Assembly: GCF_003947435.1 (NCBI RefSeq) | Contig: NZ_RCOS01000137.1 | Location: 1 to 64,000 of the forward strand | Reading direction: 5' to 3' | From: Candidatus Methanodesulfokora washburnensis | GTDB lineage: Archaea > Korarchaeota > Korarchaeia > Korarchaeales > Korarchaeaceae | Length of the DNA stretch: 64,000 nt | Program-made: the position numbers and the translations under genes | Notes under the pieces: generated by a model | Told to the model about the DNA's origin: nothing | Database searches by the model: none | The model's input: only the letters and a program-made list of their open reading frames with translations | Shown: positions 24,415 to 57,548 of the stretch, piece after piece | Layout of the letters: every line of letters begins with the position of its first letter | Numbering within the stretch: position 1 is the first letter of the stretch

Positions 24415-24453
24415 TCTGATTATATTAGCATATAGTTTATAAATATAATCAGA
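24415..24453. repeat. 12-bp perfect inverted repeat downstream of the Rossmann-like CDS
   Basis: TCTGATTATATT-agcatatagtttata-AATATAATCAGA, ~22 bp after a stop codon. Confidence 0.6.
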
Positions 24454-24672: not shown

Positions 24673-25749
24673 ATGCCTTCACTCCTAGAGGAAATCTCTT
24701 ACATGAAGGAGAATAAGGCTTTGATTGTAAAATTGGCTGTTGATCACTTCTTTCTCTCAACAATGCCCTACCAGCCTACCTCAGCAAGGACTATTATATT
24801 CAAACAAGTTCCTAAGGATTTCCAGGAGATCAATCTCCGGGAGTTTTATGGTAGAATCAGGAGCGAACTTGATGCTGCCAACTCCATAGTCTTTTTAACA
24901 GCCGCAAATGTTGAAAATTATATTTATAGTAAAATTGATGAACCCGAGATTCACATCCTTATAACTATGGGATTGAGACCCCCCACTTGTCCGGGAGTTA
25001 AGGAGCTCTTCAGACCTCTGAGTTCAACCATAAATATTGCTGTTATTGTTGATAGGGGTCTTACAAAAAGTGCGATTATAGATCTTATAAGAGTTGTGGC
25101 CGAGGCTAAGACCCTAGCTGCTGTTGAGCTTCTCCTGAGGTGTGATTACAGATCCTCTGGCACTGTAACCGATGCAATAGCTGTTGGAAGGCCGCTTAGT
25201 CTAGATGAAAGCGTCCTCTTTGCAGGAATGTCAACCGATATCGGCAATAAAGTGGCTTACTCTATTTACAGCTCCATTGTGAAGGAGGGTTTAAGAAGGT
25301 TGAGTTTGGATGATTTTATAATCAATACACTGGGGATTCAGCTAGAGGAATTATTAAAGATAATTGCCAAAAGTTATAATGCCATCTTTAATTTAAATAT
25401 AGATGAGAAAATCCTCATAGAAAATGCAACTAGAATAATAAATTATCTATTTAAAGATAGAAATATAATAAACTTTTTAATAACTGCTAGAGAGCTGGAT
25501 CTGCGCACGGCAATAGGTTCCATACCTACCTACGGTAACGTCCGCACAAGCCCCGCTGAGGAGTATCTATCCATCGGGCTTGCAGCGTATTCCGTTGGTC
25601 TTAAGAGCATTCCAATAATCTCTCAGCTGAGAAAAATTGAGGAACTTGGCATCATTAGGATAAACTCCCCCCAATTTGAGAAGGAAGCTGCGCTTGGCAT
25701 TATAGGATCCGCTTTATTGCTACTGCATGAAGCCCTTTCAGGCAAATGA
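24673..25749 (+). CDS. cbiS: CbiZ-type adenosylcobinamide amidohydrolase fused to a CobZ/PgpA-like domain (CbiS-like)
   Basis: CDYRSSGTVTDAIAVG CbiZ-like motif; helical C-terminus; first gene of the corrinoid salvage cluster. Confidence 0.7.
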   Translation: MPSLLEEISYMKENKALIVKLAVDHFFLSTMPYQPTSARTIIFKQVPKDFQEINLREFYGRIRSELDAANSIVFLTAANVENYIYSKIDEPEIHILITMGLRPPTCPGVKELFRPLSSTINIAVIVDRGLTKSAIIDLIRVVAEAKTLAAVELLLRCDYRSSGTVTDAIAVGRPLSLDESVLFAGMSTDIGNKVAYSIYSSIVKEGLRRLSLDDFIINTLGIQLEELLKIIAKSYNAIFNLNIDEKILIENATRIINYLFKDRNIINFLITARELDLRTAIGSIPTYGNVRTSPAEEYLSIGLAAYSVGLKSIPIISQLRKIEELGIIRINSPQFEKEAALGIIGSALLLLHEALSGK

Positions 25750-25758
25750 GGTGGGATT

Positions 25759-26817
25759 ATGGAATCAAGATACCATGGTGGAAGAGCTCCTGACAACTGT
25801 CTGGATTTCAGCAGTCCGATGAACCCATTAGGTCCTCCAGAGGCGCTGGTAAATGCAATAAATGACGTGATAAAGGACAGAATCTATACAAGATATCCGG
25901 ATTATGAGTATAAAAAACTAAGAGAATGTATAGCGGATTTCTATGATTTAAGAGCTGAGATGCTTATACCACTCAATGGAGCTGCGGAGGCACTGCAACT
26001 GATCCTGCCGATATTAAGACCAAAGGCTTTGGTGGCAATAGAGCCAACTTTTGGGGATCACAAGCTTCAAGCCGAGGCACTTGGATTGCCCTTGATCAGC
26101 ATAAGCTATAAAAGACTCTCTTCAAGCTTTGCATTAGATATAATCTCCTATAGCTCTAAAATTCGTGAATTTGAAGACAAAATTCTGCTCTACATGTCGA
26201 ACCCCAATAACCCCACCGGTTGTCTAGCTAATAAAAAGCAGATTGAGGAGCTACTTGAATGCCTGCCATCTAATTCTTATGTAATCCTAGATGAGGCTTT
26301 TATGGACTTTACTGGAAATTCTGAGAGCTTCCTTTGGAATTGTCCGGATAATGTGATTGTTCTCAGGAGCTTAACAAAGATACTGGCGATACCAGGCATG
26401 CGCATTGGATTCATTTATACAAATAATGTTGAGATTTTGGATCTTATAAACAAATTCAGACAAGCTTGGAACGTCAACGCTGTGATAGCTGAGTCCCTCT
26501 CAAAGCTGGACAAAAAAGCTCTGAGAGATTATATAGACCATTCTATTGAGATAGTGAACACCGAGAGAAATTTTTTGGTCAAAGAGCTCAGAAAATGCGA
26601 CCTCAAGGTTTATGAGTCTCAAGCGCCATTTCTTCTGATTGAACATTCCGTAAAGCATCCCGAGATTATGAAAAAACTGATTAGTTTGGGAATCTATGTT
26701 AGAGATGCCTCCACCTTCCCCTATCTGACAGAACATCACAGCAGAGTATCTGTTAGACTCAGAAGTGAGAATGCAAGACTTGTAGAGGCATTCAAGAAGC
26801 TTCTTAAGGGATCTTAA
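25759..26817 (+). CDS. cobD: Aminotransferase class I/II, threonine-phosphate decarboxylase-like (CobD)
   Basis: YHGGRAPDNCLDFSSPMNPLGPPEAL, MSNPNNPTGC, LDEAFMDF, RSLTKILAIPGMRIGF; adjacent to cbiB. Confidence 0.85.
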   Translation: MESRYHGGRAPDNCLDFSSPMNPLGPPEALVNAINDVIKDRIYTRYPDYEYKKLRECIADFYDLRAEMLIPLNGAAEALQLILPILRPKALVAIEPTFGDHKLQAEALGLPLISISYKRLSSSFALDIISYSSKIREFEDKILLYMSNPNNPTGCLANKKQIEELLECLPSNSYVILDEAFMDFTGNSESFLWNCPDNVIVLRSLTKILAIPGMRIGFIYTNNVEILDLINKFRQAWNVNAVIAESLSKLDKKALRDYIDHSIEIVNTERNFLVKELRKCDLKVYESQAPFLLIEHSVKHPEIMKKLISLGIYVRDASTFPYLTEHHSRVSVRLRSENARLVEAFKKLLKGS

Positions 26818-27761
26818 TGGAGAAGATCTTGCTTTTTGATTCCCGATTGTTAAGCATCTCTCTGCTGCTCACCATAATATTGGATTGGATATATCCAGAG
26901 CATAAAGGGATTATGCTGAAAATACACCCTGTTCATACCTCCTATTACCTGTCGTTGAATTTAGCTAAACCTTACTCCAGCAGATGGAGAGGGGTAGCTG
27001 TCTGGCTCTTTGTAGTAACAGTTCATATTGTCCCTGCCCTATTTCTAATGACAATTTCCTACAAATTATCTCCAATATTATATATTATCATATCTGTTGT
27101 TATACTCAAGTTTTCCATATCTCTAAGGTTGCTTCTTGATATATGTCATCAAGTGCTGGAGAATGTGAAACATGGCGATTTAGATGGTGCAAGGAAATAT
27201 GCCCAGCTGATCGTGAGAAGGGATGTCTACAAGCTGGATGAGGGCAGGATTATCTCAGCTACTCTTGAGAGCCTAGCTGAAAGCTCAGTGGATGGATTTA
27301 TCTCCCCTCTGACATACTACTCTTTCTTGGGACCTATTGGTTCCCTTTTACAAAGAATAGCCAACACATTGGATGGTTCTATTGGGTTTAAGACACCAGA
27401 ATTTTCGAAAGTAGGCTGGTTCTCAGCTAAAGCAGATAGCTTGCTGAACTACATTCCTGCACGTATAGCAGCCCTCTTAATGGTCATATTAGCACCGACA
27501 GTTGGTGGCAGCATAAAGGAATCCTTCAGAGTGTGGAGAAAGTGGCACAATGCCACTGAAAGCATAAATGCTGGGCACCCTATGGCTGCAATCGCGGGGG
27601 TTTTACGCATCAGACTGGAAAAGGTAGGACATTACATCATCAATATGGAATCCAGACTGCCGACATCTGAGGATTTAGCCAAAGGGATAAGATTCATGAT
27701 CACAGTTAATTTTACATATATTATGCTAATTATACTGCCTATATTGTTAATTTGTCTTTGA
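26817..27761 (+). CDS. cbiB: Adenosylcobinamide-phosphate synthase (CbiB)
   Basis: HPVHTSYY-like region, ARKYAQLIVRRDVYKLDEGRIISATLESLAESSVDGFISPLTYYSFLGPIGS, NAGHPMAAIAGVL. Confidence 0.88.
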   Translation: MEKILLFDSRLLSISLLLTIILDWIYPEHKGIMLKIHPVHTSYYLSLNLAKPYSSRWRGVAVWLFVVTVHIVPALFLMTISYKLSPILYIIISVVILKFSISLRLLLDICHQVLENVKHGDLDGARKYAQLIVRRDVYKLDEGRIISATLESLAESSVDGFISPLTYYSFLGPIGSLLQRIANTLDGSIGFKTPEFSKVGWFSAKADSLLNYIPARIAALLMVILAPTVGGSIKESFRVWRKWHNATESINAGHPMAAIAGVLRIRLEKVGHYIINMESRLPTSEDLAKGIRFMITVNFTYIMLIILPILLICL

Positions 27762-27839: not shown

Positions 27840-28325
27840 TTATTTACTCCTTGGTAAATTTTGTGCCTCCCTTAGGGCACGCGTATACATCTTAGAGGAT
27901 ACACCGGCTATTAAAGCTCCTATGGCATCGTTGGAGAACGGTCCGAGTTTCTTTAGGATCCCAGGTTTGTTTTGGTCGAATCTAACATATTCGAATACAG
28001 CTCTAGTTCCTCCTATATAATTAGCAATAGCTATGCCAAGAGCCTCATCAGCCACAGGTCCAGGTCGACCCAGAAGCATCTCCTTTGAGAGACCAGGAAC
28101 AATTCCAGCTTTAGCATCTTCCTCCAAGCGGAGGCAGGCAAATATAAGACATGAAACATTTACATCAGACATTGTATCGAGAAACTCATCCTTTAAGATT
28201 TCCACAGCCTTATCCTTAGTTTCAACACCTGGATGAGGAACGAAAAGCTCTAAAGCTGTATTTATTAGATCTTCTAAGGTGATACCCTTTTCCTCTAAGT
28301 ATTTTAGCAGGGGGGGTTCTCTCAT
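27840..28325 (-). CDS. PgpA/CobZ-like phosphatase family protein
   Basis: LLGRPGPVADEALGIAIANYIGGTRAVFEYVRFDQNKPGILKKLGPFSNDAIGALIAG. Confidence 0.7.
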   Translation of the reverse strand: MREPPLLKYLEEKGITLEDLINTALELFVPHPGVETKDKAVEILKDEFLDTMSDVNVSCLIFACLRLEEDAKAGIVPGLSKEMLLGRPGPVADEALGIAIANYIGGTRAVFEYVRFDQNKPGILKKLGPFSNDAIGALIAGVSSKMYTRALREAQNLPRSK

Positions 28326-28598
28326 CCTCTGGCCACCAGCAAAGCTGTAGTACCTTTAAAAAGGCATATTTAGAAAAATTAAATGCAGATCACCTGTTTA
28401 TAAGAGATCAGACCCATAGTGATTGCGCACATATGTAATAGCGACTCCAATACCAATTGATGGTCCCACCCAATGAGAGCTATTTAGACATTTTTATATG
28501 TTAAGTAAAAAAAGAGGTAGTTTTGAGATTGATATTGCAGTTAAAAGAGACTTAAGAGGGACAGTGCTCTACAGGAGGCGCAACCTTTATATTTATCT

Positions 28599-28643
28599 CA
28601 CCCTTTAGTACTTGATGTCTGGATAATCCAGACATAAAGGGTG
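28599..28643 (+). promoter_or_regulatory. Nested perfect inverted repeat over promoter/start of btuF
   Basis: CACCCTTTA-GTACTTGA-TGTCTGGAT-A-ATCCAGACA-TAAAGGGTG: outer and inner 9-bp arms both perfect; TATA-like CTTTATATTTA just upstream. Confidence 0.8.
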
Positions 28644-30107
28644 AAAAAAATGATCAGGAGGTTGGAGAAGATCACAAACAAGAAGGGCTATTTGTGGCTT
28701 GTAATGCTCTTGCTACTGCTTTTGCCAGTAGTTAGCCCTGTAAATTCTCAGACCACAATCAAAGATGATTTAGGGAGAACAGTAGTAATAACTAAGTCGG
28801 AGAGGATAGTATCAATAGGGCCATCCTGCACCGAGATTCTTTATGCGCTTGGTCTGGGGGATAGAATAGTTGGAGTCGATGTATACTCGGATTATCCGCC
28901 TGAGGCCCGATCCAAGCAGAAGATCAGCAATTGGTGGTCTCCTAATCCAGAGGAGGTCTTAGCTTTGTCTCCAGATATTGTTTTCTACTCTGTTGGCTCC
29001 AGTATAACTGTTGAGAACCTTGAAAAAGCCGGATTAACTGTTGTAGCATTACGTCCATTATCCATAGAAGATATTTTCAAAGATATTAAGCTCATTGGTG
29101 AGATAACAGGGAAATCGAAGGAAGCAGAGGATCTTGTCTCCTCCCTTCGAGCAAGAATAAATGCTGTAGAGGATAAGTTATCCTCTATCACGAAAAAACC
29201 AAAGGTTTACATGGAGTTCTGGTATCCTCCTCCTTGGACTTTCGGCTCAGGTTCGTGGTGCAACCAAATTATCAAGATGGCTGGAGGCGTAAATGTTTTT
29301 GGTGATGTGGCCTCACCAGGTGCTAAAACAACAGATGAAGAAGTAATAGCGAGGAATCCAGATGTTATAATCCTTCTTTATGGTATAATGTACAAAGCCT
29401 CAGCAGACGATGTAAAAAAGAGGCCTGGATGGAACATGATATCGGCAGTAGCAAATAATGCAATATATCAGCTAGACGAAAATCTATTTGTGAGGCCCGG
29501 CCCTCGCTTAGTGGACGGGCTTGAAATCCTAGCTAAAGTATTACATCCTGAGGCATTTGGAGTGAATAGTACATTCGCATTTTCACTGGATACATCAGCA
29601 TTAAGGCAGGGAGTTCAGTCCTTTAACATATCAGATGGTATACAGACCGAGATAACAGTCATGAAAGCGTTGAGTAACAGCTCTTTGATCGTCACACTTC
29701 CTGTATCTGGACCAAGTCCACCGGAAGGTGTTAAGCAGATCAGGTACCTATCTATAAGCTCAAGCGCTCCTGAAGGTTTAACCATGATCCTTAGAGTTTA
29801 CTATCCTCGAGAGGAAATTCAAAGGCTGGCTATTGCTGAGGATTCATTAAAGATCTACAAGTGGGATCAAAAAGAGAATAGATGGGTTGCGCTCACTAGC
29901 GCTGTTAACAAGGACGGAAGATATGTTGAAGCCTTAGTGACCGGCGCAGGAAGCTTGATGCTAGCAGGAAAGCCACTGCCGCCGATATGGGAACAACCTA
30001 TCCCACTATGGCTTTTTATCTCCTCTTTGTTGGTCTGTATAGCAGCGTCTGCAGCTATAGGGGCATATTTTGGTTTAAGGAGTGGTAGGAAACATGCCAC
30101 AGGCTAA
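28641..30107 (+). CDS. btuF: Cobalamin/corrinoid ABC transporter substrate-binding protein with C-terminal beta-domain and TM anchor (BtuF-like)
   Basis: DDLGRTVVITKSERIVSIGPSCTEILYALGLGDRIVGVDVYSDYPPEA; followed by FecCD permease and ATPase. Confidence 0.88.
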   Translation: MKKMIRRLEKITNKKGYLWLVMLLLLLLPVVSPVNSQTTIKDDLGRTVVITKSERIVSIGPSCTEILYALGLGDRIVGVDVYSDYPPEARSKQKISNWWSPNPEEVLALSPDIVFYSVGSSITVENLEKAGLTVVALRPLSIEDIFKDIKLIGEITGKSKEAEDLVSSLRARINAVEDKLSSITKKPKVYMEFWYPPPWTFGSGSWCNQIIKMAGGVNVFGDVASPGAKTTDEEVIARNPDVIILLYGIMYKASADDVKKRPGWNMISAVANNAIYQLDENLFVRPGPRLVDGLEILAKVLHPEAFGVNSTFAFSLDTSALRQGVQSFNISDGIQTEITVMKALSNSSLIVTLPVSGPSPPEGVKQIRYLSISSSAPEGLTMILRVYYPREEIQRLAIAEDSLKIYKWDQKENRWVALTSAVNKDGRYVEALVTGAGSLMLAGKPLPPIWEQPIPLWLFISSLLVCIAASAAIGAYFGLRSGRKHATG

Positions 30108-30140: not shown

Positions 30141-31136
30141 ATGGACCTTCTTCCTCACAGTCCTATCTTTTTTTTGATTTTTTCGCTCATATTGGCGATA
30201 TCAATAGGCTCAATTCAGATAAGCTTATCTGATGTCTTCTTCACTATTGTGAAGAAGCTTCTGGGTTCTCAGGCAGGAGGAAATCCAGAATCCATAAAAG
30301 AAACCGTAATCATCGAGCTTAGGCTTCCACGTGCACTTTTAGCAGCCTTAGCTGGCCTTGCTTTGTCCGTGGCTGGTACTGTCTTTCAGTGCATCTTTAG
30401 GAACCCGTTGGCTGATCCGTATGTGCTTGGAGTTGCATCGGGCGCAGGATTTGGTGCATCTCTAGTCATATTTCTAGGAATAGATCTTCTGCTCGGTTCT
30501 ATCTACGTGATACCGCTTTTTTCATCAATAATGGCAATACTAACTGTGTTTTTGGTCCACCTTATAGCAGGAGGAGGAACCGAACTTAGACTATTGCTCG
30601 CAGGAATGGCTGTAAGCAGCTTTTTCTCATCATTAATGAGCATTTTATTAGATTTAGCCGGACCGAGAGCACATGGCGTATTTTACTGGATTTTCGGAGG
30701 ATTTCCCCTAATGGGCTGGGAGTATGTAAATGTGGCACTGCTAGCCGTGCCCTTATCGCTGTTGATATTCATCTTTGCCAGGGATTTGAACATATTGTTG
30801 TTGGGTTATGAGCAAGCTAAGCAATTGGGGGTTGAAGTTGAGAGATTGAGAAAGCACATGATGGTAGTTAGCTCTGTTCTGACAGCGGTGATAATATCCA
30901 TATGCGGTATCATAGGTTTTGTGGGGCTTGTAGTTCCCCACATGATGAGGATTATAGTCGGATCAGATCACCGCATATTGCTACCTTCCTCCGCTTTGGC
31001 AGGAGCATCTATCCTAGTGCTCTGCGATACTGTTGCCAGGAATGTCCTCAGGCCCATAGTCATCCCAACAGGAGTGGTAACTGCCCTGCTTGGTGCTCCA
31101 TTCTTTGTATACCTTCTTCACAAGGGTGTTCGTTAA
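30141..31136 (+). CDS. btuC: FecCD-family ABC transporter permease (BtuC-like)
   Basis: ELRLPRALLAALAGLALSVAGTVFQCIFRNPLADPYVLGVASGAGFGAS; GIIGFVGLVVPHMMRIIVGSDHR. Confidence 0.92.
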   Translation: MDLLPHSPIFFLIFSLILAISIGSIQISLSDVFFTIVKKLLGSQAGGNPESIKETVIIELRLPRALLAALAGLALSVAGTVFQCIFRNPLADPYVLGVASGAGFGASLVIFLGIDLLLGSIYVIPLFSSIMAILTVFLVHLIAGGGTELRLLLAGMAVSSFFSSLMSILLDLAGPRAHGVFYWIFGGFPLMGWEYVNVALLAVPLSLLIFIFARDLNILLLGYEQAKQLGVEVERLRKHMMVVSSVLTAVIISICGIIGFVGLVVPHMMRIIVGSDHRILLPSSALAGASILVLCDTVARNVLRPIVIPTGVVTALLGAPFFVYLLHKGVR

Positions 31137-32428
31137 TGGCAATCCTGAAGGTCTGCAATATTGAATGCTACTATGAGTCTACCAAAGTACTGGATGGAAT
31201 CAGCTTCTCGATAAACCCAGGAGATTTTGTAGGGGTGCTGGGACCAAATGGATCCGGAAAGACCACTTTGCTGAGAGCCCTGAGCAGAGTGCTGAAACCT
31301 AGGATAGGTGCTGTATTTCTGGAGGATTCAAACATCTACTTGATGAAAAACCGGGAGGTCGCTAAGAATATTGCTGTAGTTCCTCAAGATGCAGCGCCTG
31401 CAGGATTCAACTTGACGGTTTTGGACTTTGTGCTGATGGGACGACATCCACACATGAGCAGGTTTAAGATGGAGAGTGAAAAGGATTTCGCTATTGCCAA
31501 AAGAGCAATGGAGATGACAAATACCCTGTATTTAGCGGGAAAAAATATAAATGAACTAAGCGGTGGTGAAAGACAGCGAGTGCTTATCGCAAGGGCACTA
31601 ACTCAAGAGCCAAAGGTGCTGTTGCTCGACGAGCCAACCAGTCATTTGGACGTCAATAACCAGCTGGAGATAATGGAGCTGTTAAAGAGACTTTGTTTAG
31701 AGAGAAAGATGGCAGTTCTTGCAGTTCTTCATGATTTTAATATAGCTTCGCACTACTGCGACTCACTTATACTGTTAAATGGGGGAAGGATAGTGTCGAT
31801 GGGAGCTGTGGATGATGTTTTAACAAGCGAAAATATAAAAAAGGTATTTCAAGTGGATGCAATAGTGAAGAGAAATCCCATAACGGGCTCTCTATATGTA
31901 ATACCTGCTTTAATCAGAAGGAAGGAAACCGATCAGGACTTTTCCATTCACATAATTTGCGGTGCCGGCACCGGAACTGGCCTCATGAAGATCCTTGCAG
32001 AGATGGGCTTTAATCTCACAGTAGGCGTACTTAATGCGCCGGACACGGATTATGAAACAGCACAGCTGCTGAACATACCTTCTGTGATAGAAGCCCCATT
32101 CTCCCCGATATCTGAGGAGAACTACAGAGCAAATCTGGAGATCATACTTAGATCGGATGCTGTCGTCATCTCATCTGTACCATTTGGCTATGCCAATCTA
32201 AAAAACTTAGAAGCCGCAAGGGAGGCAATAAAAAGAGGGATACCTGTGATAGTCCTAGATGATATACCGATAGAGCAGAGGGATTTCACAAAAGGTGAGG
32301 CGACCGAGATTATACGTGAATTGAGGGATAAGGGGGCCGTTTTCGTTAGAAATGAGCAGGATTTACTAAATGCAATTTTTTACATTAAAAAGAATAAGGA
32401 TTCTGTAAAGCAGGAGGTGATCAGGTGA
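31136..32428 (+). CDS. btuD: Corrinoid ABC transporter ATPase (BtuD-like) with ~150-aa C-terminal extension
   Basis: GPNGSGKTTLLRALSRVLKPRIGAVFLEDSNIY, LSGGERQRVLIARALTQEPKVLLLDEPTSHLD; ATG at 31136 overlaps the btuC stop (the ORF track start at 30902 lies inside btuC). Confidence 0.9.
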   Translation: MAILKVCNIECYYESTKVLDGISFSINPGDFVGVLGPNGSGKTTLLRALSRVLKPRIGAVFLEDSNIYLMKNREVAKNIAVVPQDAAPAGFNLTVLDFVLMGRHPHMSRFKMESEKDFAIAKRAMEMTNTLYLAGKNINELSGGERQRVLIARALTQEPKVLLLDEPTSHLDVNNQLEIMELLKRLCLERKMAVLAVLHDFNIASHYCDSLILLNGGRIVSMGAVDDVLTSENIKKVFQVDAIVKRNPITGSLYVIPALIRRKETDQDFSIHIICGAGTGTGLMKILAEMGFNLTVGVLNAPDTDYETAQLLNIPSVIEAPFSPISEENYRANLEIILRSDAVVISSVPFGYANLKNLEAAREAIKRGIPVIVLDDIPIEQRDFTKGEATEIIRELRDKGAVFVRNEQDLLNAIFYIKKNKDSVKQEVIR

Positions 32429-32472
32429 AAGATAAATTAAAAAGTAATATGTTATGTTCGGAGTCTTTTGAG

Positions 32473-32520
32473 GGTAAAACCCTATCGTTGGGAGGTGGTG
32501 AAAATGGAATATGGAAAAAA
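32473..32520 (+). repeat. Copy A of a ~48-bp leader repeat shared with cobT
   Basis: ggtaaaaccctatcgttgggaggtggtgaaaatggaatatggaaaaaa versus the copy at 34222. Confidence 0.8.
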
Positions 32521-32547
32521 TATAGTATATTTCAGGAACAATGCTCC

Positions 32548-33516
32548 ATGAGTTTGGATAAGATTCTCTCGGTCTTGAGATATCTTTTAGATCTTTCGGT
32601 GAGAAGAAATCTTGCTGAGGGCATTCTGCTTTCTGGAGGTCTCGATACAAGTATAATAGCCTCTATAGCATCCAAATACACGTCTCTGAAGGCGTTTACA
32701 GTAGCCTTTAAGGAGGCTCCCGCGCCTGATATAGGGTATGCATCGATTGTCGCAAGGAATCTGGGACTTAAGCACTTTGTGTATTACTTCGGTGAGAGAG
32801 AGCTTTATGAATCCATTCATCAAACTATAGATATATTAAAAACGTTTGATCCTATGGAAGTTAGAAATAGTGCAGCTATATATATTGCATTGAGAAGAGC
32901 AAGGGAGGAAGGAGTGAGCACAGTGCTCACAGGCGATGGTGCAGATGAGATATTTGCTGGATATAGCTTCTTCTTCAATCTGGATAAAATTAGGCTTAAG
33001 CTAGAACTTGAGAGAATTCAGGAGGCAATGTTCTTTTCCTCTATTCCACTGGCGAGAAATCTCTCCATGGAAGCAAGGCTACCGTATCTTGATCCAGATT
33101 TGAGATCTTTTGCTGCAGAGATTCCTCCAGAATATAAAGTGAGGGAGGAGAGAGGTGCTATTTGGGGAAAGTGGATCCTACGAAAAGCCTACGAGGAAAC
33201 TCTGCCTGAGGAGATTGTATGGAGGATAAAGACTCCGATAGAATTTGGCACAGGAACTACAATCCTTCCAGAGCTTTTTAATAGAAAAATCTCGGATGAG
33301 GAATTCGAGAAAAAGAAAAAAGAATATCTTGAAAGAGATAGAGTGACAATACAAAATAAAGAGCAGCTATTTTATTATGAAATTTATAGAAATATAATAG
33401 GTGTTCCCAGACCTCCGAAGGAAGGAAGAGCTTGCCCATACTGCAATTCGGCCATAGGCGAGAGGGCGACGTACTGCAGAACATGTGGAGCGTCAATTCA
33501 GGAGGGGATCAAATGA
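32548..33516 (+). CDS. Asparagine synthase-like ATP-pyrophosphatase (AsnB C-terminal domain, no glutaminase domain) with C-terminal zinc ribbon
   Basis: LLSGGLDTSIIASIASK PP-loop, LTGDGADEIFAGY, MEARLPYLDPDLRSFA; C-terminal CPYCNSAIGERATYCRTCG. Start MSLDK proposed; the ORF track starts at 32425. Confidence 0.8.
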   Translation: MSLDKILSVLRYLLDLSVRRNLAEGILLSGGLDTSIIASIASKYTSLKAFTVAFKEAPAPDIGYASIVARNLGLKHFVYYFGERELYESIHQTIDILKTFDPMEVRNSAAIYIALRRAREEGVSTVLTGDGADEIFAGYSFFFNLDKIRLKLELERIQEAMFFSSIPLARNLSMEARLPYLDPDLRSFAAEIPPEYKVREERGAIWGKWILRKAYEETLPEEIVWRIKTPIEFGTGTTILPELFNRKISDEEFEKKKKEYLERDRVTIQNKEQLFYYEIYRNIIGVPRPPKEGRACPYCNSAIGERATYCRTCGASIQEGIK

Positions 33517-34193
33517 TTCCAGCAGTGGCCTCGTGGAGCGGCGGTAAAGATAGCTGTCTGGCTTACTATAAGGCTATTCAGAGCGGATTTAATGTAAAAT
33601 ACTTGGTGAACTTTGTTGGCAAAGATGGAAGAACCTCTGGACATGGGTTGAGAAGGGAAGTCTTGGCCTTACAAGCTGAGGCTTTGGGAGTCCCTATAAT
33701 TCAGGAAGTAACCACATGGGAGACTTATGAGGAGAGATTTAAGGATGTAATGAGCAGGTTAAAACAAAAGGGAATAAATGCAGCAGTATTTGGGGATATC
33801 TGGATTCCTGAGCATTTGGAATGGGTTGCAAAAGTGTGCAATGAGATTGGCATCGCATACGTGGAGCCCTTGTGGAATCATGATACGCTCGAGCTTCTAA
33901 AAGAGTTTATCAGCTTGGGCTTCAGGGCCATAGTGGTGAGCGTCAGAGCGGATCTCCTCAGCGATGATTGGCTGGGACGGGAGATTGATTACAAATTTAT
34001 AGAGGATATGATTGCTATTAACAAAACGCGTAATATTGATTTATGCGGTGAACGTGGAGAATATCACACACTTGTAATAGATGGACCTATTTTCAGGAAA
34101 AGATTGAGAATAGTAGAAAGGAATAAAATCTTTGGAAAAGATGTAAATAAGTGGCTTTTTGACATCCAGAGATGCGAGCTGGAGGATAAGTAA
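33513..34193 (+). CDS. DUF71/COG2102 (Dph6-like) ATP-pyrophosphatase, likely B12-salvage subgroup
   Basis: SWSGGKDSCLAYYKAIQSG PP-loop; FGDIWIPEHLEWVAKVCNEIGI; ATGA overlap with the upstream gene. Confidence 0.82.
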   Translation: MIPAVASWSGGKDSCLAYYKAIQSGFNVKYLVNFVGKDGRTSGHGLRREVLALQAEALGVPIIQEVTTWETYEERFKDVMSRLKQKGINAAVFGDIWIPEHLEWVAKVCNEIGIAYVEPLWNHDTLELLKEFISLGFRAIVVSVRADLLSDDWLGREIDYKFIEDMIAINKTRNIDLCGERGEYHTLVIDGPIFRKRLRIVERNKIFGKDVNKWLFDIQRCELEDK

Positions 34194-34221: not shown

Positions 34222-34270
34222 GGTAAAGCCCTATCTGTTGGGGGGTGGTGAAAATGGAATATGAGAAAAA
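34222..34270 (+). repeat. Copy B of leader repeat, spanning the cobT RBS and first codons
   Basis: ggtaaagccctatctgttggggggtggtgaaaatggaatatgagaaaaa. Confidence 0.8.
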
Positions 34271-35360
34271 GTATGACATCATACTTTTCCATGAGAAAGA
34301 GAAGGGTAAGAATTTTCTGTCGGAAGTAGAGGGCAAAAATCCCTTGTTTATCTGCACTATAGGCAATACTCAAGTTGCTAAAATACCGGGAATATCAGCG
34401 GCAGGCAAGTTTCCGGAGATAACAGATTATACTCCCCCTGCAGACGTTGAGCTCCTGTTGTTAGGCTCATGCAAGTGCATTCAAGGAGTTCCCGTGACCC
34501 CTGAAGGTATACCAACTCCAGCATTGATAACAATGTCGGCGTTGAGGCTCGCTAACATACCCGCCATAGTTGTAAACGGTGGAACAAGGATTAAACCCCA
34601 TGTGCCCTTTATAGATGTTGGAGGAGAACCAGGAGAGGATATTAGAACTGGAAAGGCTGTAAAAAATGTGGAAGAGGTTCTAGAAAGGGCTAAAATTGCC
34701 GGAGAAAATTTCTCAAGGATAGCTGATTATCTAGTGATAGGGGAGAGTATTCCGGGCGGAACGACAACAGCTCTGAGCGTTATGCTCGCCATGGGCATAG
34801 ATGCGAGGGGAAAAGTGAGCAGTAGCATGCCAGATAACCCTCATGACCTTAAAACAAGGATTGCGGAGGAAAGTCTTAGAATCTCCGGAATAAAAGCTGG
34901 CTCGCTGACAAATGATCCGATAAAAGCAGTTTCGTTGGTTGGAGATCCCATGATGCCAGCTTTTGCAGGACTAGTTCTTGGGGCTGCTTCGAGAGTTCCG
35001 GTGTTAATTGCGGGTGGAACCCAGATGGGCGCCATTTTAGCGATAATAAAAGCTTTAAACCCAGGAGTTCTAAAAAATATAGCCATTGGGACGACGAGAT
35101 GGATAATATCGGATGCTAAGTCTGATTTAAGGGGCATTGTCTCTCAGATAGCTGATATTCCAATATTAGCAGCTGATCTAGATTTCAGTTCATCTAGATT
35201 TGAGGGATTGAGAACATATGAGAGGGGATTCGTGAAAGAGGGTGTTGGAGCAGGAGGCGCTGCAATAGCTGCCATGATGAAGTCCAAGGGATCTATCTCA
35301 AGGGAAACTTTGCTCGGAGAAATAGAGAGGAATTATGAGAGACTTGTACAGCTGAGGTGA
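34245..35360 (+). CDS. cobT: CobT-like nicotinate-nucleotide--base phosphoribosyltransferase
   Basis: CTIGNTQVAKIPGISAAGKFPEITDYTPPADVELL; GESIPGGTTTALSVMLAMGIDARGKVSSSMPDNPHDLK. Confidence 0.9.
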   Translation: MVKMEYEKKYDIILFHEKEKGKNFLSEVEGKNPLFICTIGNTQVAKIPGISAAGKFPEITDYTPPADVELLLLGSCKCIQGVPVTPEGIPTPALITMSALRLANIPAIVVNGGTRIKPHVPFIDVGGEPGEDIRTGKAVKNVEEVLERAKIAGENFSRIADYLVIGESIPGGTTTALSVMLAMGIDARGKVSSSMPDNPHDLKTRIAEESLRISGIKAGSLTNDPIKAVSLVGDPMMPAFAGLVLGAASRVPVLIAGGTQMGAILAIIKALNPGVLKNIAIGTTRWIISDAKSDLRGIVSQIADIPILAADLDFSSSRFEGLRTYERGFVKEGVGAGGAAIAAMMKSKGSISRETLLGEIERNYERLVQLR

Positions 35361-36109
35361 GCTATCTGATCAGGGAATTGAGAAATATCATTTCATTTCT
35401 TACAATAATACCTGCTGGGATGACATCAGACTGCCTAGAGGATGTTGCAAAATACATGTATCTATTTCCGCTGGTTGGAGCCTTTATAGGGTTCCTGAGC
35501 GGCATCTTCGCCTACATCCTCCTTAAAGTGATTGGCCCTTTTATCACAGGAGCTCTGACCCTAGGCTTTATTTTATTTATCACAGGTTTTCATCACACAG
35601 ATGGGTTGCTTGACTTCGGAGATGGTTTAATGTGCCATGGATCGCCAGAGGAGAGGATAAGGGTGATGCATGATCCTCACCTAGGTGCTGGAGGCTTTAC
35701 ACTAGGATTGATAATATATTTAATAACCTTATTCTCATTAATAGAACTTGATTTAAATATAATAATTCAAAGCTTGATTATATCTGAAACCTCAGCTAAG
35801 CTCGCGATGGTGTTTATAGCTTGGGCCGGGAGATCCGCACATAAAGGGATGGGCGCGATCGTTGTGGACGTGATGCATGGCAAATACCGCTTTGCCCGCC
35901 TATCAGCCTCCTTACTAATTTCTTTTATCATAATACTGCCGCTTACTTGGCTTGCCGGTCTCATAATCGTAGCAATTGTGTTAGCAACCTCATATATGAT
36001 AGTGCTAATTTCGAATAGAAATTTTGGAGGAGTAACTGGTGATGTAATAGGAGCTGGAAATGAGATCTCCAGACTTATGTCTCTTTTGGCTATTCTGGTG
36101 ATAAAATGA
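35357..36109 (+). CDS. cobS: Adenosylcobinamide-GDP ribazoletransferase (CobS)
   Basis: FHHTDGLLDFGDGLMCHGSPEERIRVMHDPHLGAGGF; GGVTGDVIGAGNEISR. Confidence 0.93.
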   Translation: MSYLIRELRNIISFLTIIPAGMTSDCLEDVAKYMYLFPLVGAFIGFLSGIFAYILLKVIGPFITGALTLGFILFITGFHHTDGLLDFGDGLMCHGSPEERIRVMHDPHLGAGGFTLGLIIYLITLFSLIELDLNIIIQSLIISETSAKLAMVFIAWAGRSAHKGMGAIVVDVMHGKYRFARLSASLLISFIIILPLTWLAGLIIVAIVLATSYMIVLISNRNFGGVTGDVIGAGNEISRLMSLLAILVIK

Positions 36110-36720
36110 ATGTAACTGCCCTCGTGATGGCAGGAGGTAGGGGATCTAGGCTAAATTTAAGTGAAGAAAAACCATTGCTTAAGCTAAGCGGGAGGCCTCT
36201 AATAGAGTATGTTTTAGATGCCCTCAATAATGCTCACATAGATGATATAGTCGTTGCTGTAAGCGACTACACCAGAAAAACAGCAGAGTATATCAAGAAG
36301 AAGGGCTTAAGAGTGATACACACGCCCGGAAGTGGATTTTGCCTTGATGCAAAGTATGCAATAGAGAAACTTAGTCTTGAAACAACCCTGACAGTAAGCG
36401 CTGATCTCCCCTTTATCACAGGTAAATTCATAGATGAAGTTCTAGCGTACTATGAGCAATCTGGAAAGCCAGCCTTGACCGTTGTTGCACCCTTAGAGGT
36501 CTATAGAAAATACAACTCAAGCGAGGGGTATCCCATTACTCTTAGAGGACAAGTGGTGGTCCCAATCGGCGTGAATGTGGTTAATGGGGCAAGAATAAAG
36601 GAGGAATTTTTGGATCAGGATTTTTTTATTATATATGATGAAAAAACTGTTATCAATATAAATAAAGTTGAGGATTTATGGATAGCAGAAAGGCTGCTGA
36701 TAAGAACATCAATACGATGA
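36106..36720 (+). CDS. cobY: Adenosylcobinamide-phosphate guanylyltransferase (CobY-like)
   Basis: TALVMAGGRGSRLNLSEEKPLLKLSGRPLIEYVLDAL NTP-transferase motif; overlaps cobS. Confidence 0.88.
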   Translation: MNVTALVMAGGRGSRLNLSEEKPLLKLSGRPLIEYVLDALNNAHIDDIVVAVSDYTRKTAEYIKKKGLRVIHTPGSGFCLDAKYAIEKLSLETTLTVSADLPFITGKFIDEVLAYYEQSGKPALTVVAPLEVYRKYNSSEGYPITLRGQVVVPIGVNVVNGARIKEEFLDQDFFIIYDEKTVININKVEDLWIAERLLIRTSIR

Positions 36721-46707: not shown

Positions 46708-48372
46708 TTACGGAGGTATTATAGGATCTCTCTCGCCTGCCGGCATGAACTCCCTAAGAGCACCTTTAGCAAAGCACTTTCTCGGCTCTACAAAGTCGAA
46801 TTTGAGATGAGGATCAGCAAAAGCAACTTTTACCAATGGATTGACGCACCAAGCATGCCTGCATGCCATGTGTGCAGCAGCCACTATTCCAGCATATTCA
46901 CCTAGGTGGCCGACGTTCATCGCATAGTTCGGGTAATTGGGTCCTCTCAGCTCCAATGGCAGGCCTTCATCACTCCTGTAGGAGAAGGAGTTTGCTGCTC
47001 CCATCTGATCCTGTGCATCATACCCGAAGAATCCCAGCCTTCCCCAGTGCTCCTTGTGGAGTATCTGGGAGAAGTACCATCCATTAACTCCAGCATTGGC
47101 GTCCCCTGTAGCTATAGCGACTCCTATACCTGAAGCTGCAGCAGCTACTGCCGCTCTCTGCGAACCTCCAAAGTGCGTCTCCATTAACGCAGGATACCTT
47201 TCATACTGCTCCAGACTATAAAGAGTGACCTCCGCAGCAATGTCTTCTATCACATCCAGCGATGGCTTGACTTTAGCAAATCCTCCATATTTTGACTTTA
47301 CGTAATCTGCTGCATAGTAACTATAGTCATCGAGAATATTGTCAGTGTAAACTGGAGTTGCATATTGTGTAAACCCGACACCACCAGACATGTATATCCC
47401 GAACCAGAGCTGGTCATATATGACAGAGCCAGCAGCTAGTGTCTCCAGAGCCACTTTCACAGGGTCATCTGGATAAACTCTGCTTGTCTGAACGATATCA
47501 GCCATATAGCCAAATGGCAATCCTCCCGGCTCATTTGGACCTCTGGCTCTTCTCCAAGGCATCAAGGTGGCCATTTCTATTACTTCAGCATGTTTTGCAG
47601 CAAATGCAAACTCTCCTATTGCTGCCTCTCCGGCCATGAGCTTGTATGCATCTATCATGCTCATGCTTATCTGCATAGCAGACCATCTTGCTATAGTTCC
47701 ACCATCGGCTACTCTTCCCACTATTGTGGGTACCCTCATAACCTGCCATAAGGACTTGCCTATTGCCTTCTTAAGAGCCTCAGCCTGCTCGGGTGGGAAC
47801 TGCTTGTTTATGTCTATCAGGAACCTTTTGTCTATTCTGTCTGCGAGCTCGTCATCTCCAGTAAATACCTTGACATAGGAGTCCTCAACAAGCGCAGGGT
47901 GAATCTCAACCATATGCTCTTGGACAACAGCACCTCCTGGTAATGCATGATTCAGTATCTCAAGGTAATGGTTTATGGACTCGGGAGTCACCTCCTTGCC
48001 CAGCCTTTTCTCTAGGATCATGTGAGGTGCATCAAGGCCGACTATAACGGTCCTTCTTATGTCGTCCCACAGCTGTTGCATTGCTGCATTGTTTATAAAG
48101 TGAAGATCATCTCCCTCCACATATACCCCAGTTCCAGAAACTTCATAAGGCATCAGAACTCTTTGGCCAAGAGGTACCCCTAGATGAAGCTCAGGATTGT
48201 ATCCCGGTATTCCTCTCTCTTTAGCCATCTTCTGAGCATATTCATAGAATTCCGTTTTTCTCTTTGATTGTCTCCATGCCCCGAATACATAGAACTGGGT
48301 GGATCTTTCTGCAGGATCCTCCTTAAATTTCTTTCTCAGGGCATCTATAAACAACTTCTTCTTCTCACTCAT
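46708..48372 (-). CDS. mcrA: Methyl-coenzyme M reductase alpha subunit
   Basis: [111 protein letters not shown]. Confidence 0.99.
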
Positions 48373-48401
48373 AACACCACCTCCTTCTTCTTGTACATCT
48401 T

Positions 48402-49193
48402 TTATACCCCCTCCGCTTTGGAGGGATTAAACCCAGCAAGAGTTCTTAAACTATGGATTCTCTTTACGAAATCCAAAAGTTCCTTGTCATTTCTAGTTGA
48501 TATTCCATCGTGTCTGTAGGTTGTAGTGATCTTCTTTAGCTCCTCCTCTGGAAGAGGCTTACCCATCCTAACTGGTGTTTCAAGCGGAGTTCCCAGCTGA
48601 TCCTTAACATATACTACTTCTCCAGTTTTCTCATCGTAGACGTATCTTCTGAGCATGTCGAACATTAAACCATGCTCATCAAGCCTTAAGGCATGTCCAT
48701 GAACAGTAGCACCCCTTATACCTGTGCGAGATGGGTCAAAGAACTCTGTTTCTATGAAATCCTTAGCTATGATCTCCAGATCCCTCTCTCTTGCTTCAAT
48801 AGGGTTCCTTCCAGATAATGTCCCAGTGTCAACACCGCGGTATCTCCAGAGGAGCGTCCAACTCCTTATATAAGGCATAAGAGGAGCGAAGTAAACAGAG
48901 TCTGTGAATTGGATGAATCTAATTCTGTCGCCTGCTTTTGCCCCTGGAGTTGGTTCCACCAACTCCCTTATTGGGCATTCTGGTTCGCCTAGCTCCTCAA
49001 GCGGAGGATGGACCGATTTATAAGCTTCGCCAGGCTTTCTATGACCTAGAATCTTTATGAGATCCTCATCTGATATAGACCTCAGCTTTCTTGGTTTATA
49101 GGATGGATCCATATATCTCCTTCTATTTTCAGCTATAACAGTTTCTCCAGGATATGCAGGTTTGTAGGGCATACCTTCCACTCTCACACTCAT
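48402..49193 (-). CDS. mcrG: Methyl-coenzyme M reductase gamma subunit
   Basis: [44 protein letters not shown]. Confidence 0.98.
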
Positions 49194-49197
49194 ACTT

Positions 49198-49830
49198 TCA
49201 CCCCATAACCTTTTGTATATTCAAAAAAAACTTCACTTTTTTGCATATTTCATCCACCTTCTCAGGAGGGCAGCTCTCCCCCCTCACTACATCAGTAACT
49301 ACTTCGATGACCTCCCCCAGGGTTTCAGGTCTCTCCGGCTTAACCGATGCAGTTCTTATGCCAGCTTTTGCAAAGTCCTCAAGAGTCACAGGACATTGAC
49401 ATACAATTATTGCTTTTATTGGTATGTATTTTAATATAGCTTTTGCCTTCGCTACAACATGATGCTTAACATTTCCTAGGTGAATTATGCAGAGTTTATG
49501 TCTTGAGATCACATCGATCTCCTCTACTTTTATCCCAAAATGCGATCCATACCCGCCTTTTATTGTAGATGCGTCAGGAGGAGGACTAGATCCTGCATCC
49601 AGTATTAAAACAGAGGGGTTGATGCCTTCTCTTCTCAGACCTGCGGTAATTTCGCACACAGGTTTTGTAACATGCCTAGGACCAGGAGACATTCCGACAA
49701 CGATAACATCAGATTTTGATCCCCCGCTGTATCCATCTGATATCGTCCCTCTTTGAGCTAGACCTCCGCCAAGACCTATGCCCATAGTTTCTCTGCAATC
49801 AACAAACTGCGTTTCTCTGCCTATTTTCAT
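49198..49830 (-). CDS. mcrC: Methyl-coenzyme M reductase operon protein C
   Basis: [45 protein letters not shown]. Confidence 0.96.
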
Positions 49831-50219
49831 TTAAGATCCTCCTCTCTCTCAGGAGCAACAAGCAAGTACTGCATTATTGAGTCATGAATTGTAGGACGGT
49901 CTTTCAGGAACTTCCCAACTCTTATGGAGTATCCAAAGGGTAAAAGCTCGTCACATATCTCCCTAACCTTCTCTACTAAGGAATTCGGATTATTAGTTCT
50001 CATTATTATTCTGCCAACAGCAACTCTAAGCTCAACCTCCTTGCCATGCAGACTTATTATCTCCCTTCTCTCCCTGCCCAATGAAGGACCATGCACTACA
50101 ATCTCTTGCACATCCTCCAGCTCCTCTATTGCATTGAGAAGTTTCTCAGCAGTTTTTGCACTTAACAATCTGTTGGGAAATATCTCAACATCACTTATAC
50201 TGGGGGAGGCCTGCATCAT
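49827..50219 (-). CDS. mcrD: Methyl-coenzyme M reductase operon protein D
   Basis: DVEIFPNRLLSAKTAEKLLNAI; VHGPSLG; position between mcrB and mcrC. Confidence 0.94.
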   Translation of the reverse strand: MMQASPSISDVEIFPNRLLSAKTAEKLLNAIEELEDVQEIVVHGPSLGRERREIISLHGKEVELRVAVGRIIMRTNNPNSLVEKVREICDELLPFGYSIRVGKFLKDRPTIHDSIMQYLLVAPEREEDLK

Positions 50220-50221
50220 CC

Positions 50222-51550
50222 TTACACAGCTCCCTTTATGCTTGCTGCTGCCTTAGCTACATGTACTATGGGCTCCCTGAGCACTGGTATTGTGCTGAAT
50301 GTGCGACCTAGCACCCCAGCTATTGCCTCTGGAGTGTAGTGCACAGTTCCTGCGTCGAGAGCTATTGCAGCAGCTATGCAAGGTGCAACAAATCCCTTGC
50401 TATGTCTAGTCACGATGTGATTTCCGTGAAATACAACAGGACTTCCACCCCCATAGATTGAGTGACTAAAGAATGAGAACTCAACTCCAGTTCCTTGGAC
50501 TCTTCCAAAATCGACAGCTGGTAAGCCTACCTGCCTCTCCAGAAGATCATTGTAGTATACACTGACTGCGGAAACACTTTGCATTGCTCTCTGAGCTCCA
50601 CAATTCACCATTGTAGCTGCAAGATATCCCGCTGCTGCATATGCATTCCATAGGGCCATATCCTTAGCTTTATATGTCCTATAACCCGATTTAGAGGTTC
50701 CATTCGGCTCAATTACTCCATCTTCTATGGCTCTCTTCACAAGACTTGCAACAACTGTCCCAACAGAACCGTTCTTGCCATTCTCCTTGACAAGTTCATA
50801 TACTAAGTTGTTTGCGTTTAACGCTTGGAACGCTAAGCCTAATAGATGCAGCCTCTCAAAGGATCCTACAGCATCGCCCATCTCTACCATAGCGGACTGT
50901 TCAAGGATACCTGCAAGAGCGGCAGCATTTATCGCATTCCTTCTGGTGATCACAGTAATATAAGACACAGGGATGTTCCTCATCACATAACCAAGACCCT
51001 CATTTTCCTGAGGCACTGAGAGGAGGGATTTAATATATGCTCCCATCAGGTTCATTGTCTGTGGATATCTTCCCCAAACGGCGGCCTTGACCATTGGTGC
51101 TTGAAACATGTCCAAGTTGAACAGGTTGATTATAGTCTCAGTCAGCGCAGCCGCAGTAGCAGTTATGGGCGCAGTGTACTCGATCGAGTTGAGCACCCTT
51201 ATGGTGGGAACCTTTACTAGCAAGCTCTTTCCATTCTCAAGTACCTGTACCTCAGTATCGTCATCCTTCTTTACCTGAACTATCTTCTTGATTCCATCGG
51301 CAATAGCATGGGCATTGCCAACTAAGTCCAATTTCAGGGATTTTCCAGGAATGACGCATTTAGAGCCTCCTACTGCTCCTCTCTCCAAGGCCCTTTGCAT
51401 TCCCTCTAAGTCTACTGCAACGGATCTAGCAATTGTCATCTTGATTTCGATGATGGCAGGGTTCAATAGGGGATGAACTGCCCTCAGGGGCACATCGGAT
51501 TCAACTAATCGGCCCCTGTCGTCATATAGATCGATTTTGTCCTCCTTCAT
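50222..51550 (-). CDS. mcrB: Methyl-coenzyme M reductase beta subunit
   Basis: DLYDDRGRLVESDVPLRAVHPLLNPAI; FFSHSIYGGGSPVVFHGNHIVTRHSKGFVAPCIAAAIALDAGT. Confidence 0.98.
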   Translation of the reverse strand: MKEDKIDLYDDRGRLVESDVPLRAVHPLLNPAIIEIKMTIARSVAVDLEGMQRALERGAVGGSKCVIPGKSLKLDLVGNAHAIADGIKKIVQVKKDDDTEVQVLENGKSLLVKVPTIRVLNSIEYTAPITATAAALTETIINLFNLDMFQAPMVKAAVWGRYPQTMNLMGAYIKSLLSVPQENEGLGYVMRNIPVSYITVITRRNAINAAALAGILEQSAMVEMGDAVGSFERLHLLGLAFQALNANNLVYELVKENGKNGSVGTVVASLVKRAIEDGVIEPNGTSKSGYRTYKAKDMALWNAYAAAGYLAATMVNCGAQRAMQSVSAVSVYYNDLLERQVGLPAVDFGRVQGTGVEFSFFSHSIYGGGSPVVFHGNHIVTRHSKGFVAPCIAAAIALDAGTVHYTPEAIAGVLGRTFSTIPVLREPIVHVAKAAASIKGAV

Positions 51551-56632: not shown

Positions 56633-57279
56633 GCACCACCCCTCTTAATCAAGAGCTCTTTTGCAACTCTTACAGCTGCAGCTGCATCCTTTGCATAGCC
56701 GTCTGCGCCGTAAGCTCTTGCCAATTCCTCGCTTAGAGGGCCTCCACCTACCATTGTTATCGTCTTAGGCGCCTTTTTCTTGAGTTCGCTTATTATCTCA
56801 GGCATGGCTATCATAGATGTTGTCATCAACGCAGACATGCCACAAATGTCCGCCTGCTCTCTCATAACAGCCTCCACAAACTGCTCATTTGGAACATCTC
56901 TACCCAAGTCTATAACTTGGAACCCTGCAGCCTCCATCATTATCTTTACTAAGTTCTTCCCAATGTCGTGTATATCCCCTCTAACGACCCCAAGAACAAT
57001 TTTTTTGGGCGTTTCAACTCGCTCAGCCTTAAGATATGGTTTAAGAACACCTATAGCGGCATACATAGCCTCTGCCGAGCAAAGTATCTCGGGAACAAAC
57101 ATCTCCCCCTTCTCATATTTTTCACTCACGATATTCATACCGGCAGCACAGCCCTCCATAATTGCTTCATATGCATCGATACCCTCGGCAATTGCCTTCT
57201 TTGCAAACGATACTACTTTATCGACATCTCCCTCAACAGTTGCATCTCTAAGTCCTTCCAAAATCTCTTTTTTTCCCAT
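56629..57279 (-). CDS. Corrinoid (B12-binding) methyltransferase protein, MtaC/MtbC-like
   Basis: Cap domain plus VVRGDIHDIGKNLVKIMMEAAGFQVIDLGRDV (D-x-H-x-x-G motif). Confidence 0.93.
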   Translation of the reverse strand: MGKKEILEGLRDATVEGDVDKVVSFAKKAIAEGIDAYEAIMEGCAAGMNIVSEKYEKGEMFVPEILCSAEAMYAAIGVLKPYLKAERVETPKKIVLGVVRGDIHDIGKNLVKIMMEAAGFQVIDLGRDVPNEQFVEAVMREQADICGMSALMTTSMIAMPEIISELKKKAPKTITMVGGGPLSEELARAYGADGYAKDAAAAVRVAKELLIKRGGA

Positions 57280-57318: not shown

Positions 57319-57548
57319 TAATAAAAAGCAAGCTTTTCTAATAAACTTTTTTCGACAAAAAATAAGAAAAAAATAGGATGGATTATCCATCCTTTTCTTA
57401 AAAAAAAGTGTAATCGCCCTAATTAAGCGGAAAGCAAAGAAGCAGACGTCGATAAGCAAAACAATAAATGCCAATCTGCTTGGAAAAATTTTTAACATTT
57501 TGCACGCACCTCTACTTATCAATTAAAAATAATATAAGAGAAAGTAAT

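Follow-up and report, generated by a model that had tools for sequence, protein, structure and literature searches.

The corrinoid gene cluster and the btuF promoter

The window (the whole stretch of DNA that was analysed, 64 kb in length) carries a corrinoid gene cluster in the order cbiS, cobD, cbiB, cobZ (divergent), btuF, btuC, btuD, two other genes, cobT, cobS and cobY, and its content agrees with an earlier note on this DNA, made from the letters alone, which had placed a corrinoid uptake and salvage operon downstream of the promoter considered here. The genes lie as follows:

24673-27761, plus strand: cbiS-cobD-cbiB, the remainder of the corrinoid cluster
27840-28325, minus strand: cobZ, alpha-ribazole phosphatase, divergent from btuF (TIGR03161, 5.8e-41)
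28650-30107, plus strand: btuF-like corrinoid-binding protein (Peripla_BP_2)
30141-31136, plus strand: btuC permease
31136-32428, plus strand: btuD ATPase with a C-terminal extension (corrinoid ABC transporter ATPase match, 3e-97)
34251-36720, plus strand: cobT, cobS and cobY, the downstream salvage genes

Between btuD and cobT are asparagine-synthase-like and diphthamide-synthase-like (PF01902) genes (32425-34190). A 12-bp perfect inverted repeat, TCTGATTATATT...AATATAATCAGA, lies upstream of cbiS (24415-24453) and is without the TGGATNATCCA core described below, and a perfect 10-bp inverted repeat, AAAAGTATGA-CA-TCATACTTTT, is found at the 5' end of the cobT reading frame (34267-34288). Farther along the window, at 46708-51550 on the minus strand, are ORFs that by eye resemble methyl-coenzyme M reductase (alpha, gamma and beta subunits). 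They are set among numerous methyltransferase and methanogenesis-marker-like genes, and the organism would appear to be a methanogen of the methyl-reducing type.

The region ahead of btuF contains these elements:

28586-28595, plus strand: TATA-like element TTTATATTTA of the btuF promoter
28598-28607, plus strand: left outer arm TCACCCTTTA, real, probably non-functional
28599-28607: CACCCTTTA
28615-28635: inner 21-bp perfect palindrome ATGTCTGGATAATCCAGACAT (arms ATGTCTGGAT-A-ATCCAGACAT), the proposed operator
28616-28624: TGTCTGGAT, followed by the central A at 28625
28616-28630, plus strand: first overlapping box, TGTCT-GGATA-ATCCA, 8/10 to TGGAT-N5-ATCCA
28620-28634, plus strand: second overlapping box, TGGAT-AATCC-AGACA, also 8/10, offset by 4, symmetry mate of the first, with core TGGATNATCCA
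28626-28634: ATCCAGACA
28635-28643: TAAAGGGTG
28635-28644, plus strand: right outer arm TAAAGGGTGA, holding the Shine-Dalgarno sequence GGTGA (28640-28644)

Direct reading of 28598-28644 bore out the two perfect arm pairs that the earlier note had described, with arms of 10 bp each rather than 9. The TATA-like element that it had put at ~28585-28595 is a good archaeal TATA box, from which general archaeal promoter spacing predicts a transcription start near 28613-28620. Counted from the TATA 8-mer, the inner palindrome is 22 nt away, compared with 19-21 nt in most btuF promoters of one other archaeal family (f10, see below). The right outer arm does include a Shine-Dalgarno sequence, but the GTG at 28641 that had been suggested as a start codon falls within it and was rejected; the btuF start codon is likely the ATG at 28650, with GGTGA upstream.

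The whole 64 kb holds five inverted repeats whose arms reach 10 bp or more with a spacer of at most 30, some of them within genes, so a single one is unremarkable. The chance of a 10-bp palindrome with a spacer of at most 8 in the 325-bp btuF intergenic region is ~0.0035, and that of a second 10-bp arm abutting the inner palindrome ~5e-5; two abutting 10-bp repeats in one promoter are unlikely to arise by chance. Neither strand has a T-run at the element that would mark an intrinsic terminator, and AAAGGGTGAAAAAAATG comes next on the plus strand.

Related sites in the same genome

The TGGATNATCCA core was found in eight copies in the genome, with none for the backward control pattern. One copy (C166:21913) lies between two divergent genes, one for a DUF4443 winged-helix protein (PF14544, 2.3e-30; domain at C166:21257-21544) and the other for a DUF4430 protein (PF14478, 4.6e-9). 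The DUF4443 gene of this genome carries the box in its own promoter. This DUF4443/DUF4430 promoter has a 15-mer, TGTCTGGATAATCCA, in common with the btuF promoter, which argues that the btuF contig and C166 belong to one organism; the genome is a MAG with 5.5% contamination and larger than its relatives, and C123 (the contig of the window) and C166 are linked to one organism only through shared site sequence. A further copy, at C99:15369, covers the start codon of a gene for an anaerobic ribonucleotide reductase of the nrdD type (PF13597, 1.1e-73); the class II enzyme NrdJ, which is B12-dependent, is encoded in this genome as well (736 bits, cut-off 400). Exact cores on two other contigs (C62 and C127) are inside genes and were treated as chance.

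In addition, a second site in the window and its counterpart farther along the same contig (C123) consist of near-identical intergenic segments:

57375-57393: AGGATGGATTATCCATCCT, ~95 bp upstream of a corrinoid-protein gene (56635-57279, minus strand)
C123:67145-67163: near-identical segment carrying AGGATGGATTATCCATCCT, upstream of an MtaB gene

On the minus strand both show the dyad followed by a T-rich run, and each may be either an operator or a terminator hairpin. The same genome encodes a second binding protein for corrinoid or siderophore, which is BtuF-like and has two domains in tandem within a single frame of 659 codons (G000, C155:9950-11686).

A 19-bp form of the box in the window's own family

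Genomes of the same family carry a 19-bp form, TGGATGGATNATCCATCCA, which consists of two boxes overlapping at an offset of 4. The window palindrome seems to have the same design with symmetric changes (TGtcTGGATaATCCAgaCA); it agrees at 14/18 positions and is fully symmetric. Sites scoring 14/18 to TGGATGGATNATCCATCCA, symmetry not being demanded, number four in the window compared with 0.37 expected. The 19-bp sequence was present at the promoter of DUF4443, beside the DUF4430 gene, in 17 of the 20 family genomes that bear DUF4443, always 351-400 bp ahead of the DUF4443 C-terminal domain. Counting other family sites with at most one mismatch to the 19-bp box, we found it in front of nrdD in five genomes (G000, G002, G005, G009 and G011) and of another nrdD in G021, in front of ECF S-component-like membrane genes with weak Pfam support (G010 and G011), and, in G003, at a promoter common to a RACo corrinoid activator and a corrinoid protein. 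From these gene contexts the 19-bp box appears to mark a coherent B12 regulon in the window's family, and a link between box and corrinoid is well supported, if indirectly, by what that regulon contains.

The box at other archaeal btuF promoters

The btuF region had no close orthologue by DNA in the genus, family or phylum genomes examined, nor by peptide patterns in the genome contigs searched, and two same-genus genomes, both incomplete, gave no close btuF match. A search of 394 archaeal genomes with the exact palindrome TGTCTGGATNATCCAGACA returned scattered two-mismatch matches, somewhat above the backward control and patternless; TGTCTGGATNATCCAGACA was superseded as the relevant motif, the recurring one being shorter and differently spaced. 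This emerged from the promoters of distant btuF homologues (75 archaeal promoters, with shuffled promoters giving the expectation). TGGAT-N5-ATCCA was perfect in 12 of the 75 (0.04 expected) and present with one mismatch (9/10) in 17 further promoters (0.94 expected). Boxed promoters span about ten families (f4, f5, f10, f19, f27, f54, f86, f94, f97 and f98), and symmetric variants of the box occur in two more, GGGATAGGGTATCCC in f3 and AGGATAAATTATCCT in f65.

The window site itself matches TGGAT-N5-ATCCA at 8/10 positions in each of its overlapping frames, below the 9/10 applied to the other promoters, and forms a 21-bp perfect dyad at the core promoter ahead of btuFCD-cob; it reads as a diverged copy in which perfect half-sites are spaced by 1 and not 5. 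In btuF promoters the box has two layouts: it either sits right on the TATA box or follows it at a distance of about 19-22 nt. The site in the window has the downstream layout, like that of the f10 genomes (TATATA, 19 nt, TGGACAAATAATCCA, GGTGG, ATG). In the on-TATA layout the box lies between the TATA box and the predicted start and would be absent from the RNA, which favours a DNA operator. Of the features that the earlier note had proposed to look for in related genomes, a palindromic box recurs in other archaea; the outer arms were absent around the other copies of the box in the genomes compared. As the outer arms do not recur, and as the left one would be untranscribed from the start predicted by the TATA box, they are probably incidental.

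DUF4443 proteins in other phyla and their predicted structure

DUF4443 genes of other archaea are also associated with the box. In f8, DUF4443 is divergent from the cobalt transporter genes cbtB-cbtA, with a perfect box between them in four genomes (G237, G254, G288 and G305) and a 9/10 match in a fifth (G031). In f34, f110 and f19, DUF4443 and an operon that comprises a membrane gene and DUF4430 run towards each other, the operon promoter having a TATA box and the box, and in f97 a perfect box covers the start of DUF4443 itself. Over 47 DUF4443 loci (154 kb) there were 22 perfect boxes compared with 0.30 expected, and control loci (62 kb) had one. Long DUF4443 proteins (~320-330 aa) occur at L130, L131 and L146 (f97) and L152 (f37), divergent from an ABC ATPase gene; the box lies over the start of these long genes or just ahead of it.

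By genome, DUF4443 was present in 25 of 30 with a boxed btuF promoter and in 13 of 40 otherwise. By family, the co-occurrence of btuF box and DUF4443 gave p = 0.27 at the strict cut-off and p = 0.03 when symmetric variants were counted; it is only suggestive, and we do not use it as main evidence.

The predicted structure of the DUF4443 protein, a confident model (pLDDT 93.6), comprises a winged helix and an alpha/beta domain. The model aligned with PH0730 (PDB 2P8T) with TM scores of 0.72/0.81, and its alpha/beta domain could hold a ligand.

The proposed operator and its alternatives

The earlier note had left the choice between an operator at the core promoter and an RNA hairpin. Its operator alternative is favoured, as the core recurs at archaeal btuF and B12-linked promoters, often where it would be untranscribed, and the inner palindrome is best explained as the landing site of a repressor, that is, as a DNA operator and not an RNA switch. 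We give a probability of about three in four to the fuller reading that the btuF palindrome is an operator bound by a DUF4443 repressor that responds to corrinoid, in which the motif, its recurrence and promoter positions, the neighbouring genes and the linkage to DUF4443 are observed, and binding, dimer formation, repression as opposed to activation, and signal are all deduced. Under this model the inner palindrome (28615-28635) would act as double-stranded DNA at the transcription start of btuFCD-cob, and the DUF4443 winged-helix protein encoded on C166 beside the DUF4430 gene would bind it as a dimer. When corrinoid is plentiful, bound DUF4443 would cover the btuF start site and block initiation; in corrinoid shortage it would leave, and the uptake and salvage genes would be expressed. 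Besides its own promoter, DUF4443 would regulate the DUF4430 protein and nrdD; the latter, which is B12-independent, is a sensible target for a B12 signal since NrdJ needs B12. More broadly, we think it somewhat more probable than not that DUF4443 proteins are widespread among archaea as repressors that sense corrinoid and are related neither to riboswitches nor to CarH; they would bind TGGAT-N5-ATCCA and, in several phyla, govern a B12 regulon that takes in the B12-independent nrdD, cobalt import and the capture of corrinoid.

The box could be a real operator and yet be bound by a protein other than DUF4443, the latter being merely a regulon member or neighbour. This would fit the genomes with a boxed btuF promoter in which DUF4443 was not detected (G192, G212, G028, G113 and G338), as well as f10, where pyrF (OMP decarboxylase, confirmed at L135) directly follows DUF4443 (L135-L138 and L171) and the DUF4443 genes have no box at their own promoters, an arrangement that may point to a second role of the family. 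However, the winged-helix DUF4443 protein has the box at its own promoter in f1, f8 and f97, its gene adjoins the boxed DUF4430 operons of f34, f110 and f19, and genomes without a box at the btuF promoter mostly do not have it (4 of 26 do); we regard a different binder as unlikely. A little less likely still is that the regulon answers to cobalt, or that the box-binding protein senses a metal, as the box-linked cbtBA genes of f8 and the resemblance of the winged-helix part to DtxR/MntR-type domains might suggest; btuFCD, the DUF4430 gene and nrdD are linked to B12, not to cobalt.

An RNA switch, in which the transcribed element would fold, hide the Shine-Dalgarno sequence in its right outer arm and be opened by corrinoid or a protein, draws on the hairpin of the full element, which at -24.4 kcal/mol is more stable than shuffled sequences (z -3.45), and on a second TATA-like stretch near 28490 that could start a longer leader. 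This branch of the earlier note found no support: a cmscan of the whole window gave no Rfam family at gathering score, the cobalamin riboswitch included; the start predicted at 28613-28620 falls downstream of the left outer arm; and in relatives only the box is conserved, without outer arms and often ahead of the predicted start. The inner palindrome alone, if transcribed, could form a small 5' hairpin (-12.4 kcal/mol) that would leave the Shine-Dalgarno sequence free, and we consider an RNA switch very improbable. That these are functionless chance repeats of an AT-rich promoter, as the other repeats of the same arm length in the window might suggest, is the least credible reading, given the core-promoter position, the perfect 21-bp symmetry and the recurrence of the same half-site at the btuF and DUF4443/DUF4430 promoters.

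Comparison with known systems

Bacteria mostly regulate B12 genes by riboswitch, and the bacterial cobalamin riboswitch represses B12 uptake, cobalt transport and B12-independent isozymes. The regulon proposed here would follow the same regulatory logic, but the bacterial switch is RNA and has no match in the window. Archaea are not known to have B12 riboswitches, and a DUF4443 repressor, if real, would answer how they control their B12 genes. Since one family of solved structure (2P8T) is named, the operator is clear and the targets are listed, the question becomes directly testable in laboratory archaea; the archaeal regulator family DUF4443 would gain a function, and the unexplained DUF4430 surface protein would be tied to corrinoid capture.

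For the archaeon Pyrococcus, Rodionov et al. reportedly predicted a regulon with a cobalamin box (CBL-box) in 2003. It likewise has a palindromic operator upstream of archaeal B12 uptake genes, and the f10 genomes behave alike. Compared by description, the present case differs from the CBL-box in covering about ten families, in its 19-bp double form and in having a named factor; for the predicted cobalamin regulon of Pyrococcus furiosus, a 2023 paper lists the factor as unknown (PMC10746257). The same paper names RbkR and ThiR as archaeal cofactor regulators (PMC10746257); these are also archaeal protein regulators of vitamin genes, but of different protein families, with different operators, and for riboflavin and thiamin. 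The uncharacterised PH0730 (PDB 2P8T) shares the DUF4443 family and fold with the proposed regulator, and its f10 homologues are those with pyrF next to them and no box at their own promoter. DUF4443 was not mentioned by name in the literature library searched, and the single relevant match for PH0730 merely lists it as a family (PMC6316755). Within the literature searched, the idea of such an operator is thus known in kind; what appears to be new is how broadly it occurs, its 19-bp form, the targets in nrdD and cobalt transport, and the factor assigned to it.
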